Of a stretch of 64,000 nucleotides of DNA, positions 3,001-49,300 are shown piece after piece. The stretch comes from Streptomyces sp. SAI-127 (GTDB lineage Bacteria > Actinomycetota > Actinomycetes > Streptomycetales > Streptomycetaceae), in assembly GCF_029894425.1 (NCBI RefSeq), contig NZ_JARXYJ010000002.1:248001-312000 (forward strand), given 5' to 3'. The stretch's first letter is position 1; every line of letters starts with the position of its first letter. Under the pieces are notes generated by a model that saw nothing but the letters and a program-made list of their open reading frames with translations, was not told the DNA's origin and did not search any database. Position numbers and translations under genes: made by a program.

Positions 3001-6000
3001 GCGAGCAGGTGGCACGGGTCTGGGCGCCGGGGCGGCGCATGCTGAACGGCTACGGCCCCACCGAGACCACGGTGATCGCGTCCGCCGGACTGGTGGACGC
3101 CGGAGGGGTGGGGGCTCCGCCGATCGGCGTACCGCTGCCCAACACACGGGCGTACGTGCTCGACGACCGGCTTGCACCGGTGCCGGTGGGCGTGACGGGT
3201 GAGCTGTACCTCGCCGGACCGCAACTGGCCCGCGGCTACGGTGGGCAGGCCGGCCTGACGGCGGAGCGGTTCGTGCCCGACGCGTTCGCCGGGGACGGGT
3301 CTCGGATGTACCGGTCGGGCGACCGTGTGCGCCGACTGGCGGACGGACGGCTGAGCTTCGTCGACCGGGCCGACGGCCAGTTGAAGGTGCGAGGGTTCCG
3401 GATCGAACCGGGCGAGGTGGAAGCCGCCCTGGTCGCCCACCCGGGCGTGCGCGCGGCGGTGGTGACGGCCTTCGGCGACGGCGGTGAACGCCGCCTGGTC
3501 GCGTACGTCGTGCCGGCCGATCCCGGTGCGGGCATCCCGTCGGCGACGGAACTGCGGGAGTCCACGGGCCGACGGCTGCCGGCGTTCATGGTGCCGTCGG
3601 TGTTCGTGGAGCTCGCGGGCCTGCCGCTGACCGCGAACGGCAAGCTGGACCGCGCCGCCCTGCCGGAACCGGACGGGACGGCCCACGGCGAGCACGCGTA
3701 CGTGGCTCCCGCCGGAGCCACCGAGGAACTCCTCGCCGGTATCTGGGCGCAGCTGCTCGGCGTGCACCGGGTGGGCGCCGAGGACAACTTCTTCGAGCGG
3801 GGCGGGCACTCACTGCTGGCCACCCAGGTGATGTCCCGCATCCGTGAGGTGTTCGGCGCCGACGTCTCCGTGGCGACACTGTTCGACCACCCGACCGTAC
3901 GGGCGCTCGCCGCGGCGGTCGACGGAGCAGCCCGGGGCGCGCTCCTGGCACCGGTCGCCGAGGCCGGACGGGACCGCCTGCTGCCGCTGTCCTTCGGGCA
4001 GCAGCGGCTGTGGTTCCTGGACCAACTCGAGCCCGGATCCACCGACTACAACCTGCCGCTTCCCCTGCGCCTGGACGGAGTCCCGGACATCGCGGCACTG
4101 GGAGCGGCCCTGGACGCGCTCACGGCGCGCCACGAGGTGCTGCGCACCCGCCTGGTGACGGGGCCGGACGGGGTGGCCCACCAGGTCATCGACCCGGCGT
4201 CGACACCGCACCCCCTGCCCCTGGTCGACGTGTCCGGTCTCGCCGACCCGGCCGCGGCGGCCCGACTGCTGATCGCGGGGGAGGTGAGGACACCATTCGA
4301 CCTCGCGACCGGCCCGCTGATGCGTGCCGTCCTGATCCGCCTGGCCCCGGACGAGCACGTCCTGGTCCTGTCGATGCACCACGTCGTCTTCGACGAGTGG
4401 TCCGGCCGCATCCTGTGGCGTGAGCTGTCGGCGCTGTACGAGGCGTTCCGGGCGGGCCGCCCCGATCCGCTGCCGCCGCTCGCCGTCCAGTACGCGGACT
4501 ACGCCGTGTGGCAACACCAGTCACTGGCCGGGCCGGTGCTCGAAGGACAACTCGGCTACTGGAAGGACAAGCTGGCCGACCTGCCCGTGCTGGAGCTGCC
4601 CACCGACCGCCCCCGACCCGCCATGCGTTCCTCCGAAGGCGCCACCACCCGCTTCAGTGTGCCGGCGCACACCGCGGAGACCCTGCGAGCCCTGTCACGG
4701 CAGAGCGGCGCCACCATGTTCATGACGCTGCTGACCGCCTTCGACGTCCTGCTGGGACGCTACGCGGGAGCGGAGGACATCCCCGTGGGGACCCCGGTGG
4801 CCAACCGCAACCGCGCCGAGACGGAAGACCTGATCGGCTTCTTCGTCAACACCCTGGTCATGAGGACCGACCTGTCCGGGAACCCCACCTTCACCGAACT
4901 CCTCGCCCGGGTCCGGCACGCCGCGCTGGACGCCTACGCGCACCAGGACCTGCCCTTCGAACAGTTGGTGGACGCGCTGGTGGCGGAGCGGGACCGGTCC
5001 CGCACGCCGTTGTTCCAAGTGTTCTTCACCTACGTCATGGCGGATGCCCAGGACGGCGCCCCTCTGCTCGAACAGCCCGAAGGACTGCCGCGCACCACCC
5101 TGTTCGACCTCACCCTGCGACTCGCCGACTCCCACGACGGCGGGCTGGCCGGTGAGTTCGAGTACAGCACGGCCTTGTTCGACGCGGGGACCGTGAAGCG
5201 GTTGTCGGGTCATCTGGTGCGGCTGCTGGAGGCGGTGGCGGAGGACGCGGGGCGGCGGGTGGGGGAGCTGCCCCTGCTGTCCGCTGGTGAGGTTGAGCAG
5301 GTGGTCCGGGGGTGGAACGGTGCTGCGGTTGCGTTGCCGTCGGTGGGTGGGGTGCATGAGCTGGTCGTTGCTCATGCGTCTGCTGCTCCGGATGCGGTGG
5401 CGGTGGTCTCGGGTGCTCGTGTGTTGACGTATGGCGGGTTGGTGGCTCGGGCGAGTCGGCTGGCGCGTGAGTTGCGTGCTCGGGGTGTGGGGGCCGAGTC
5501 GGTGGTGGGTCTGTGTCTGCCGCGTGGTGTCGACGTGGTGGTGGCGATGCTGGGGGTGTGGCTGGCAGGGGGCGCCTATCTGTCACTCGATCCCGAATAC
5601 CCGCTGGAGCGGCTGGAGTTCATGCTCGCCGACAGCGGTGTGCGGGTGCTGGTGGGCGAGTCGGGGCTGGTCGGGAACCTCTCCGTGGACCGGACGCTCT
5701 GCCTGGACGACCCGGCAGTGGTGAGCGCGCTGCAGAACCGGCCGTCGACGCCACCCGAGGTGTCCGTCACGGGAGACGGGCTGGCGGCGGTGATTTATAC
5801 GTCGGGGTCGACGGGGCGTGCGAAGGGGGCGTTGGTGTCGCATGGGTCGTTGGTGGCGGTGTGTGTGGGGTGGGGGTCGGTGTATGGGGGGGTGGGTGTG
5901 GGGGGTGGTCGTCGGTGGTTGTCGGTGGCTAGTGCGAGTTTTGATGTGTTTTCGGGTGATGTGGTGCGGTCGTTGGGTGGGGGTGGGGTGTTGGTGTTGG

Positions 6001-46300: not shown

Positions 46301-49300
46301 TGTGGTGGCGGAGGACCCGGCCGAGGGCATCCCGCCGGTCGCGGACCTGCGCGCCTACGCCACCGAGCACCTACCCGACCACATGGTGCCGGCGGTGTTC
46401 ATGGAAGTGGCCGGTTTGCCGCTCACGGTGAACGGCAAGGTGGACCGGGCCGCGTTGCCGGAGCCCGACGGCGGGCGCGCGGTGTCGACAGAGAGGTACG
46501 TGGCGCCGCGCACGGAGGCCGAGCGGGTCCTGGCCGGGGTGTGGGCGCAGGTCCTCGGAGTGCAACGGATCGGCGTCGACGACAACTTCTTCGAGCTGGG
46601 CGGGGACTCGATCAGCAGCATCCGCGTCGTGGCCCGCGCCCGGGAGCTGGGCGTTCATGTCACCGTGGCCCAGCTTTTCGATCACCAGACGGTGGCGGGC
46701 CTCGCGTCGGTGGCGGCCGGACAGAGCGGTGCCGATGCGGAACAGGGCCTTGTGGTCGGTGAGTTCCCGCTGACGCCCATCCAGCGATGGTTCCTGGAGC
46801 GGAACCTGCCCGAGGCGTCACACTTCAATCAGTCGACGGTCCTGGAGGTCGCCGGCGAACCGGACCCGGAGGCGCTCCGGACGGCGCTGCGGGCCGTGGT
46901 CGAGCAGCATGACGTTCTGCGGTCCCGTTTCGTGCGCGAGGGGGGCCGGTGGGCCGGGCGTGTGGTGGCGGCAGAGCCCGCGGATCTGCTGACGGTGATC
47001 GATGCGGTCGGGTTGGAAGAGGCGTTCCTCGAGGCCCGGGCCACGCAGGTGCAGGCGAGTCTCGATCTGGGTGAAGGGCCGTTGTTGCGTGCGGTGCTCT
47101 TCGAGCGTGGTGGACAGGGCGGTCTGCTGCTCCTCGCTGTCCATCACCTGGTCGTGGACGCGGTTTCCTGGCCGGTGCTGCTGGAGGACCTGACGTCGGC
47201 GTACGAGCAGGCGGCCGGTGGGGACACGGTCGTCCTGCCGGTGAAGACGACGTCCTTCGTGCGGTGGGCCCAGCGGCTGGCAGAGCTCGCCGCCACCCCG
47301 GAGCTTGCGGAGGAGGCCGCGTACTGGGGGGAGACGGAAGCAGCTGCCACCGCCGTGCCGCGTGAGCTGGGCGGGCCGAACGCGGTCGACCTTGCGCGGC
47401 GGGTGAGCGTGGCCCTTGGAGAGGAGTGGACAGAGCGGTTGTTGCGTGAGGTGCCGCAGGCGTTTCGGACGCAGATCAACGATGTGCTGCTCAGTGCGCT
47501 GGGGGCGGTGCTCACCGAGTGGTGCGGGACGCCCTCGGTGGTCGTGGACGTGGAGGGCCACGGTCGTGAGGACGTGGGGTCCGACGTCGACGTGTCACGC
47601 ACCGTCGGCTGGTTCACGAGTGTGCATCCGGTGGTCCTGTCGGGCCCCGGTGATGGTGACCTGGGCGATCTGCTGCGGCGCACCAAGGAGTATCTGCGGG
47701 CGGTGCCGCGCAAGGGCCTCGGCTACGGCCTGCTGCGGTACCTGACCGACTGGACCCCTGCGCCCGGCCCGGGGGCGGAGGTCAGCTTCAACTACCTCGG
47801 CCAGTCCGGCGGCCCCGGCTCCGACGGGGAGGCGGCCGGAGACACCCGGTGCTTCCGTCCCTCCGGCCGCTCGCTCGGTGCGGCACAGTCGTCCCGAGGG
47901 GAACGCCCCCACCTCATCGAGGTCAACTGCCAGGTCGCCGACGGCCGCCTGGACATGGTGTGGACGTACGGCGGCGAGGTGCACGAGGAGGCCACGGTAC
48001 GGCGACTGGCACAGCGCTACATCGAGGTGCTGACCGACCTGATCGCGTACTGCTGCCGCCCCGAGGTCGGCGGCCACACCCCGTCGGACTTCCCTCTGGC
48101 CCACCTCGACCAGGCCGCCGTGGACGTCGTCACGCGGCACGTAACGACGGTGATCGACGACATCTACCCGTTGACGGCGTTGCAGCAGGGCATGCTCTTC
48201 CACTCCCACCTGTCCGACGACCCCGGCATGTACTGGGTGCAGAACGGACTCGTCCTCGACGGTGCCCTCGACCTCGACGCGCTGAAGCGGGCCTGGGAAC
48301 TCGTCATCTCGCGGCACGAGGTGCTGCGCAGCACGGTCGTGTGGGACGGCGTCCCCGAGCCGCTGGCCGTGGTCTCGCGATCCGTTCCGCTTCCCCTGAC
48401 CGTCCTGGACTTCTCCGGCCTGCGGGCTGATGCCCAGGAACGGGCCCTCGAGGAGCACCTCGCCGAGGACTGGCAGAAGGGCGCGGACTTCGCGGCCCCC
48501 ACGCTGGTGCGGCTGACGCTGATCCGGCTGGCCGACGACCGGCACCAACTGGTCTGGAGCTACCACCACCTCCTCCTCGACGGGTGGAGTGTGCCCATCG
48601 TCCTGGGCGAGATGTTGGAGGCCTACAACGCCTTCCGCGCGGGCGAACGACCGCACCTGCCGGCCCGCGCTCCGTTCCGGGACTTCGTGGATTGGGTGGC
48701 TGCACAGGATCTCGACGAGGCCCGGGCGTACTGGAGCGAACGGCTGGCAGGTTTCACCGAGCCCACGTCACCCGGAGCGGAACGGAACACGGGCGAACAG
48801 GGCCAGGAGGACGTCCACCTGGAATTGCCTGCTTCGGTGGCGGGGGCCGGTCTGGCGGAGTTCGCCCGTCGCCACCGTCTCACCCTGAACACCGTGGTAC
48901 AGGGCGCCTGGGCCCTGGTTCTGGCGCTGCACGCGGGCTCCGACGACGTGGTCTTCGGCGCGACGTCGTCCGGCCGTGGCGGTCAGATCGACGGCATGGA
49001 CGACATGGTCGGACTGCTGCTCAACACCACGCCCGTACGGATCCGCGTCGACCGTGATCAACCGGTGGCCGACTGGCTGACCGGACTACAGGACGAGCAG
49101 GTCCGGGCCCGGCGATACGAGCACACACCGCTCGCGACGATCACCGCCTGGAGTGAGGTCCCGTCCGGACAGTCCCTGTTCGACACCCTCTTCGTCTTCG
49201 AGAACTACCCGGACGAGGCCCTGACGCAGGGCAGGGAGCTGTCCGCCGCGAACGGCCTGGCGACCGGACTCAACCACGTACGGCAGCAGGCGAGTTACCC

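Follow-up and report, generated by a model that had tools for sequence, protein, structure and literature searches.

NRPS genes and shared tracts in the window

The window, a stretch of 64,000 nucleotides (nt) from Streptomyces sp. SAI-127, is part of a 383,814-base contig in a 10.7-Mb genome of 3 contigs, and is occupied by a nonribosomal peptide synthetase (NRPS) locus whose 24 adenylation (A) domains are distributed over four genes, designated A to D (6, 2, 7 and 9 A domains, respectively). The locus extends beyond the window on both sides: three A3 motifs of gene A lie to its left and one more A domain of that gene is cut by the window edge, and three of the nine A domains of gene D lie to its right. 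Modules were named m1 to m18 in the window, m-2 to m0 left of it and m19 to m21 right of it, and offsets are codons counted from the A3 motif, with A8 at +238 and A10 (NGK) at +329. The genes are the following:

3..8591, plus strand: 3' portion of NRPS gene A, whose open frame extends from -11199 and includes a total of 6 A domains
8588..14983, plus strand: NRPS gene B, 2 A domains
14980..39384, plus strand: NRPS gene C, 7 A domains, with a TubC_N docking domain at its start and a thioesterase at its end
40239..63998, plus strand: 5' portion of NRPS gene D, which continues to 73037 and has a total of 9 A domains

A first-pass annotation of this DNA had claimed that duplicated blocks in m3/m4 and m6/m14 begin just before YTSGSTG, stop between A8 and A10 and contain all code positions but one, and that the locus seems to swap substrate pockets in this way while keeping the outer A domain and the condensation (C) and thiolation (T) partners. 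Tracts called on a codon alignment of all 24 modules confirmed both blocks to the base. The m3/m4 core tract (5782-6655 / 10446-11319, 874 nt, 1 mismatch) runs from 5 codons before YTSGSTG (-5) to +271, the m6/m14 core tract (17029-18003 / 45411-46385, 975 nt, 3 mismatches) runs from -11 to +313, and nine of the ten code positions lie inside both. Identity at four-fold sites was 1.000 for the m3/m4 core (197 sites) and 0.995 for the m6/m14 core (222 sites), and the median core identity of all 276 module pairs of this genome was 0.59. The silent-site likeness of both cores is far above chance, and the homogenization takes in silent sites.

The duplication proved to be wider than these blocks. 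Modules m3 and m4 also share an N-lobe tract (350 nt, 0 mismatches) and a tract from A10 into the T domain (189 nt, 2 mismatches), and m6/m14 share 137 nt (2 mismatches) and 103 nt (0 mismatches) upstream of the core; their N-lobe is patchy (identity 0.87). Most differences between m3 and m4 over -165..+385 fall in two islands, namely the A2-A3 linker and the Asub front, and both the flanks and the islands turn sharply unlike within a few codons. The tracts and islands are listed here with their identities to the relatives S. humi and S. pseudovenezuelae:

5307..5656, plus strand: m3 N-lobe tract, codons -165..-49; m3/m4 identity 1.000 in the window genome and 0.989 in S. humi, orthologs 0.84-0.85
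5657..5781, plus strand: m3 private island 1, A2-A3 linker; 0.68 to its own m4, 0.855 to S. humi m3, S. humi m3/m4 0.64
5782..6655, plus strand: m3 homogenized A core, A3..A8 plus 26 codons beyond
6656..6808, plus strand: m3 private island 2, Asub front; 0.73 to its own m4, 0.92 to S. humi m3, 0.935 to S. pseudovenezuelae m3
6809..6997, plus strand: m3 A10 to T-domain tract, common to m4
9974..10323, plus strand: m4 N-lobe tract, identical to that of m3
10324..10445, plus strand: m4 private island 1, A2-A3 linker; 0.80 to S. humi m4, 0.68 to its own m3
10446..11319, plus strand: m4 homogenized A core, paired with the m3 core
11320..11472, plus strand: m4 private island 2, Asub front; 0.86 to S. 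humi m4, clusters with m4 of genome G109 (support 95/97)
11473..11661, plus strand: m4 A10 to T-domain tract, paired with that of m3
17029..18003, plus strand: m6 homogenized core, -11..+313, code DASTVAAVC+K; four-fold identity 0.995 to m14 and 0.88 to S. pseudovenezuelae contig C26
45411..46385, plus strand: m14 homogenized core; contig C17 of S. pseudovenezuelae stops at 45410, and 45411 is matched by base 2 of C26

Paralogs and orthologs compared across genomes

Two further complete genomes of the genus (G109 and G098) have the 24-module architecture (6+2+7+9) of the window genome, and modules were compared among these three. Streptomyces sp. or43 was excluded from the comparison on account of irregular A3 spacing and broken reading frames, which suggest misassembly. 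In the window genome the cluster is carried by a 384-kb contig, whereas in G109 and G098 it sits deep inside single contigs of 10.4 Mb and 7.9 Mb, respectively. In G098 the reading frame of gene B is broken ahead of m4, the A3-bearing open reading frames ending at 13677 and resuming at 15413 of the fetched stretch.

The m3/m4 core identity within the three genomes was 1.00, 0.96 and 1.00 versus 0.81-0.83 between them, and same-code A domains were mostly nearer to a paralog in their own genome than to the module at the same position in the other genomes. For the six modules with the code DALSLGTVM+K, trees of the core and of the N-lobe each gave one clade per genome (100/99 or 100/100), such that the genome label needed 2 changes, the minimum, and the position label 15, whereas the tree of a C-domain stretch at -265..-206 (60 codons, before the last helix) needed 11 changes for genome and 6 for position (minimum 5). 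The cores of m3/m4, m11/m18/m19, m1/m13 and m-2/m2 behaved as in this class; the contrast between core and C domain was also found for m11/m18/m19, and likewise for m3/m4 when the core was set against the C-domain stretch. An exception in the C-domain stretch tree was that m1 and m13 of G098 cluster together (82/80). Among all modules, codons -265..-211 were almost never shared, with 3-6 cases nearest to a paralog versus 18-55 nearest to an ortholog per interval. The conserved 6/2/7/9 order and a C-domain stretch that tracks position show that the modules are older than the split of the compared genomes.

The extent of the homogenized unit was determined by a scan in 15-codon intervals of up to 57 module-genome cases having a same-class paralog. 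The paralog was closer than the ortholog in 38-56 versus 2-13 cases in every interval from -160 to +334. At the margins the difference was smaller (31 versus 19 at -205..-191, and 36 versus 22 at 335..349), and the ortholog prevailed at -235..-221 (paralog 6, ortholog 49) and over 380..439 (paralog 13-22, ortholog 34-38; 21 versus 34 at 380..394). The main homogenized unit therefore runs from about the last C-domain helix to A10, which is wider than A3-A10. The claim that the outer A domain is kept does not hold in general, since the N-lobe and A10-T segments of m3/m4 are near-identical and the same-class paralog beats the ortholog in 42-48 versus 7-13 cases throughout -160..-56. Exchange does operate at a sub-domain scale.

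The cluster is also found in S. pseudovenezuelae (~84-94% DNA identity per placed piece) and S. humi (85-93%), both in fragmented assemblies. Contig ends were taken by script and compared with the edges of window tracts of at least 98% identity, using 1000 random shifts. In S. humi, 10 of 20 ends were located 27-30 nt inside such an edge, versus 0.62 expected (p 0.001), and five of 15 S. pseudovenezuelae ends lie 1-26 nt from them (0.42 expected, p 0.002). The most economical interpretation is that these paralogs are near-identical in both species as well, with the same edges. At silent sites, m6 and m14 have ~12% four-fold differences to S. pseudovenezuelae contig C26 and 0.5% to each other. 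Where both copies are readable, m3 and m4 of S. humi alternate as in the window genome: their identity is 0.989 in the N-lobe (orthologs 0.84-0.85), 0.64 in the linker (orthologs 0.80-0.86), 0.70 in the Asub front (orthologs 0.86-0.92), 0.95 from A10 to T (orthologs 0.89-0.90) and 0.64 in the C-domain stretch (orthologs 0.91-0.95).

Tract edges and specificity codes

Edges were pooled from 92 tracts in the three genomes, with 71 left and 68 right edges counted as distinct within -300..430. The null consisted of uniform tracts that were simulated by pasting between unlike modules and then called identically, and it carries the bias of the conserved motif. Eleven of the 71 left edges fall at -13..0 versus 1.6 expected (p 5e-7); over six parameter settings this number ranged from 5 to 11 (p 0.02 to 3e-7), and such edges were found in all three genomes. 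The edge just before A3 is a genuine recurrent site. Right edges were in excess at -60..-40 (8 versus 2.3 expected, p 0.002), so that the A2-A3 linker is flanked by edges on both sides. Left edges were also enriched at -220..-150 (14 versus 7.7 expected, p 0.02). Edges within +1..238 were slightly depleted (38 of 139 versus 47.7 expected, p 0.05), a depletion lost at the strictest setting. With all pairs aligned by software, the proposed non-random placement of breakpoints is upheld before A3, but most edges lie elsewhere: 60 of the 71 left edges are outside -13..0. The same holds for the proposed edge before A10, where 16 of 68 right edges fall between A8 and A10 (239..329) versus 9.7 expected (p 0.03), an enrichment that depends on the settings, and 52 of 68 are found outside that range.

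The 90 nt upstream of the young tracts (m3/m4, m6/m14 and G109 m12/m14) are just 44-58% identical, which is not explicable by mutation after conversion; in older tracts, one event could appear as two if a fast-evolving linker interrupts it. A painting analysis gave 383 switches in 57 modules and broadly the same picture: switches were less frequent in most bins of 0..240 and more frequent ahead of A3 and at either end of the A domain. The tract-edge test was preferred because the painting null performs poorly where sequences match badly. When edges were placed by secondary structure on an AlphaFold model of m6 (mean predicted local distance difference test score 74.6; alignment of 11 rows of the window's 18 A domains), left edges came to lie at the loop or the opening residue of the A3-bearing strand, and right edges past A8.

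In order to compare predicted specificities, nine pocket residues per module were read from GrsA-based motif anchors; amino-acid assignments of the codes are presumptive, and the m3/m4 code is taken to be ornithine/arginine-like. Codes were identical across the three genomes at 15 of 24 positions, small variants occurred at six (m-2, m3, m4, m9, m13 and m19), and the class or subclass changed at three (m2 in G098, m12 and m21). The collapsed modules m3, m4 and m6 are code-unreadable in S. humi and S. pseudovenezuelae. Among readable modules, 14 of 14 in S. pseudovenezuelae (nine positions, repeat contig C26 being taken as m14) and 14 of 15 in S. humi (V/I at m1 being the exception) agree with the window genome; C26 has the same nine code letters, and its frame breaks after 170 codons. 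Both m6 and m14 read DASTVAAVC+K in all three genomes, and the m3/m4 code is kept save for one A/G change, with code position 299 unreadable in these two modules. The first-pass idea of a pocket swap does not fit these codes, and exchange at this locus appears, from the predicted codes, to keep the recipe for the most part.

The clearest class change likewise departs from an exchange by an A3-edged unit. In G098, m2 has the code of the six-member class, and painting assigns m8 as its source from -107 up to the limit of the range tested, and m-2 as the source of the N-lobe ahead of -107; the pairwise m2/m8 tract spans -196..397 (1789 nt, 58 mismatches), so that by either method it starts in the N-lobe. 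For m21 of G098, painting gives m6 as the source of two segments (-120..152 and 210..345). The strongest candidate for a change of pocket with a left edge near A3 comes from G109, where m12 and m14 share an identical 219-nt tract at -8..65 (0 mismatches) that spans code positions 235/236/239, the region in which the m12 code differs between G109 and the window genome.

Explanations, precedents and further features

We consider it probable (about 0.86) that the duplicated blocks are what can be seen of concerted evolution acting within a single 24-module NRPS, most simply by repeated gene conversion, which would mostly maintain same-substrate A domains rather than swap specificities. Modules for the same amino acid would overwrite each other's A domain by repeated ectopic homologous recombination, presumably dependent on RecA and apparently non-reciprocal, leaving module order and nearly all specificity codes unchanged. 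Tracts would tend to end where the partners are unlike, namely in the C domain before its last helix, the A2-A3 linker (for some pairs), the Asub front, the A-T linker and mid-T, and an existing heterologous patch would halt later conversions, so that edges could persist between species. A crossover between direct repeats would delete modules, and none has been lost in the three genomes, which fits gene conversion without crossover.

Several observations weigh against this interpretation. The aromatic class (m6, 12, 14, 16 and 21) fits only in part, its core tree requiring 5 changes for genome (minimum 2) and 9 for position (minimum 4); in G098, m6 and m14 are not mutually closest paralogs, and the nearest paralog of m14 in G109 is m12. 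Orthologs are the closer match for five singleton modules (m0, 9, 16, 17 and 20), as would be expected of modules that lack a same-code partner; m16 does have aromatic partners. The homogenized unit is not cleanly the A domain: four C-domain intervals between -370 and -296 (up to 34 versus 18) and the interval 440..454 (24 versus 19) also favor the paralog. The enrichment of right edges between A8 and A10 is weak (p 7e-5 to 0.4 over the six settings) and gone at the strictest. Ten of 20 contig ends in S. humi and 10 of 15 in S. pseudovenezuelae match no edge of a tract of at least 98% identity, some of these lying near less identical tracts such as m11/m19, and copy identity in the two species is mostly read from contig ends, C26 excepted. 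Non-reciprocal transfer was not seen directly, although the unchanged module number would fit it. Finally, the share of ortholog-closer cases was independent of background paralog identity (rho 0.01, p 0.93, 15-codon intervals), and the idea that edges sit at low background identity failed on that test; the share does track gap frequency (rho 0.62, p 1e-8; 0.45, p 0.006 inside the A domain), and the notion that heterology stops conversion is supported only in part.

Because the ortholog-closer intervals follow gap frequency and not background identity, selection for position-specific contacts may instead set the edges: linker, Asub front and C-domain stretch would have to suit the partner C, T or E domain, and conversions crossing them would be purged. 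The islands of m3 and m4 are position-specific in the window genome and in S. humi while both flanks homogenize, the m4 Asub front clusters with that of G109, and the C-domain stretch is locked to position, as this explanation would have it. It sits poorly with G098, where m3/m4 share one tract at -42..385 (1346 nt, 0 mismatches) that spans the Asub island, which means that the island can be overwritten, and with the six-member-class tracts of the window genome that cross the linker (m5/m7, m-1/m5, m8/m15 and m7/m10). The private zones are moreover gap-rich, as plain heterology predicts, and heterology is probably the main cause of the edges; we regard selection in that role as rather unlikely. 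A combination of the two, in which the A domains are substrate cartridges, from the C-A linker to A10, kept alike by conversion and set in position-specific sockets kept private by partner-contact selection (the C-domain stretch before the last helix, the A2-A3 linker of some modules, the Asub front, the A-T linker and mid-T), is put forward tentatively and is somewhat more doubtful still. If it were true, natural NRPS cut points would be marked to the base and the private islands would represent unrecognized position-specific contacts.

The explanation first proposed for these blocks, a natural A-subdomain exchange that swaps pockets by cuts before A3 and A10 and keeps the outer A domain and the C/T partners, is improbable. 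The span of both blocks from A3 to before A10 is what it predicts, pre-A3 left edges are enriched in all three genomes after control for conserved motifs, the identical m12/m14 nucleotides of G109 carry pocket positions in a module whose code varies, and there are precedents in microcystin synthetases and in Acore hotspots (PMC8097286, in its cited passages). The exchanged modules, however, have the same or nearly the same code at the same positions in three genomes, m3/m4 are near-identical in the N-lobe and A10-T as well, the concerted unit approximates the whole A domain, and the class change of G098 m2 begins in the N-lobe. A recent segmental duplication in this lineage only would account for copies that diverge very little, but is very improbable given that m3/m4 are alike in G109 and G098 too, that contig ends of two relatives fall at the same edges, and that the modules are old, since the C-domain stretch tracks position. 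Near-identical repeats in large NRPSs are a known assembly hazard, but collapse of repeats and their copying between modules can practically be dismissed here, as flanks and islands differ sharply within a few codons, independent complete assemblies behave alike with partly different edges, and fragmented relatives break at the same places.

Both concerted NRPS evolution and Acore recombination are already published (PMC4256081, PMC8097286, PMC7486941, PMC9205934), and the comparisons made here refer to the cited passages of each source. Medema et al. 2014 (PMC4256081) reported that domains of one polyketide synthase or NRPS cluster branch together and not by position, i.e., concerted evolution. 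The window locus is alike in that same-cluster domains branch together; what sets it apart is the resolution below domain level, with islands locked to position and edges recurring across related species. In microcystin biosynthesis, an A3-A9 exchange from McyC to McyB and an Acore hotspot have been described (Fewer 2007 and Meyer 2016, via Baunach et al. 2021, PMC8097286). Common to both systems is a tract of about A3 to A9 between modules of one cluster, with the native C-A linker and Asub kept; there, however, the incorporated residue changes, whereas here donor and recipient codes are equal and N-lobe and A10-T are homogenized too. The window locus thus has a tract inside the A core, and neither the retention of the recipient's outer A domain nor a change of specificity relative to the ortholog was found.

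Calcott et al. 2020 (PMC7486941) placed recombination hotspots of A domains in Pseudomonas, Bacillus and Streptomyces at the C-A boundary and at A2-A4, and edges of the window locus are found in both regions as well. The downstream hotspot in that study begins near A5, whereas right edges here concentrate weakly after A8, and the orthologous clusters used here, unlike their data as described, permit a direct paralog/ortholog test. The same work reported a "linker plus A domain" boundary as permissive for engineering, to which the homogenized unit of the window locus is close. In the wol cluster, whose genome is predicted to have 29 potential intragenomic events (Booth et al. 2022, PMC9205934), a tract from A2 to A5/A6 lies inside a Streptomyces A domain with the C-A interface spared, as here; the pocket came from an A domain elsewhere in the genome, and lock-step among same-code modules is not part of the event as described. 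Our search of the open-licence literature found no precedent for base-level alternation within a domain together with recurrence in relatives, and the within-domain resolution of concerted evolution is the new part.

NRPS engineering has long faced the question of where A domains can be cut and exchanged. A large number of natural exchanges can be compared by position across the orthologous 24-module clusters, of which some are complete and others fragmented, and the comparison shows which parts are freely shared and which seldom move. Block identity between modules is no proof of a specificity swap; at this locus it mostly keeps the predicted product.

Further pairs, among them m7/m15, m11/m19 and m-1/m8, share longer tracts at lower identity than m3/m4 and m6/m14, and some tracts, such as that of m1/m13, lie in C domains. 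Those with a listed position in the window are the following:

19897..21409, plus strand: m7 tract shared with m15, N-lobe to past A10; 1513 nt, 41 mismatches
33433..34925, plus strand: m11 tract shared with m19; 1493 nt, 81 mismatches; partner at 64701-66193, right of the window
41132..41490, plus strand: m13 C-domain tract, identical to m1 at -1585..-1227 (left of the window; L009 18415-18773); 359 nt, 0 mismatches
49671..51183, plus strand: m15 tract, partner of the m7 tract

For m11/m19, S. humi contigs end at 33463 and 64731 and resume at 34867 and 66135. The likeness of m1 and m13 in this C-domain segment extends to G109 (439 nt, 3 mismatches) and to G098 (329 nt, 8 mismatches), and S. 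humi contigs stop 30 nt inside all four edges of this tract. C domains do join in homogenization for this pair. The claim that C and T partners are kept is right in that a stretch of the C domain and the back half of T stay with position.

A gene for an FkbM-type methyltransferase lies between genes C and D (window 39381-40184). In a search of 392 genomes of the genus, 12, with the window genome counted among them, had such a neighbor at E <= 1e-60. A plasmid search for near copies of the region between genes C and D gave no match. At L009 1085-3481, a TauD-family dioxygenase adjoins a class I/II aminotransferase, a pair that we take to be like that of capreomycidine formation from arginine and that would suit the presumed ornithine/arginine-like code of m3/m4. 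Downstream of gene D, L010 14271-17067 encodes a carbamoyltransferase (OTCace) and a CmlA-type diiron beta-hydroxylase.

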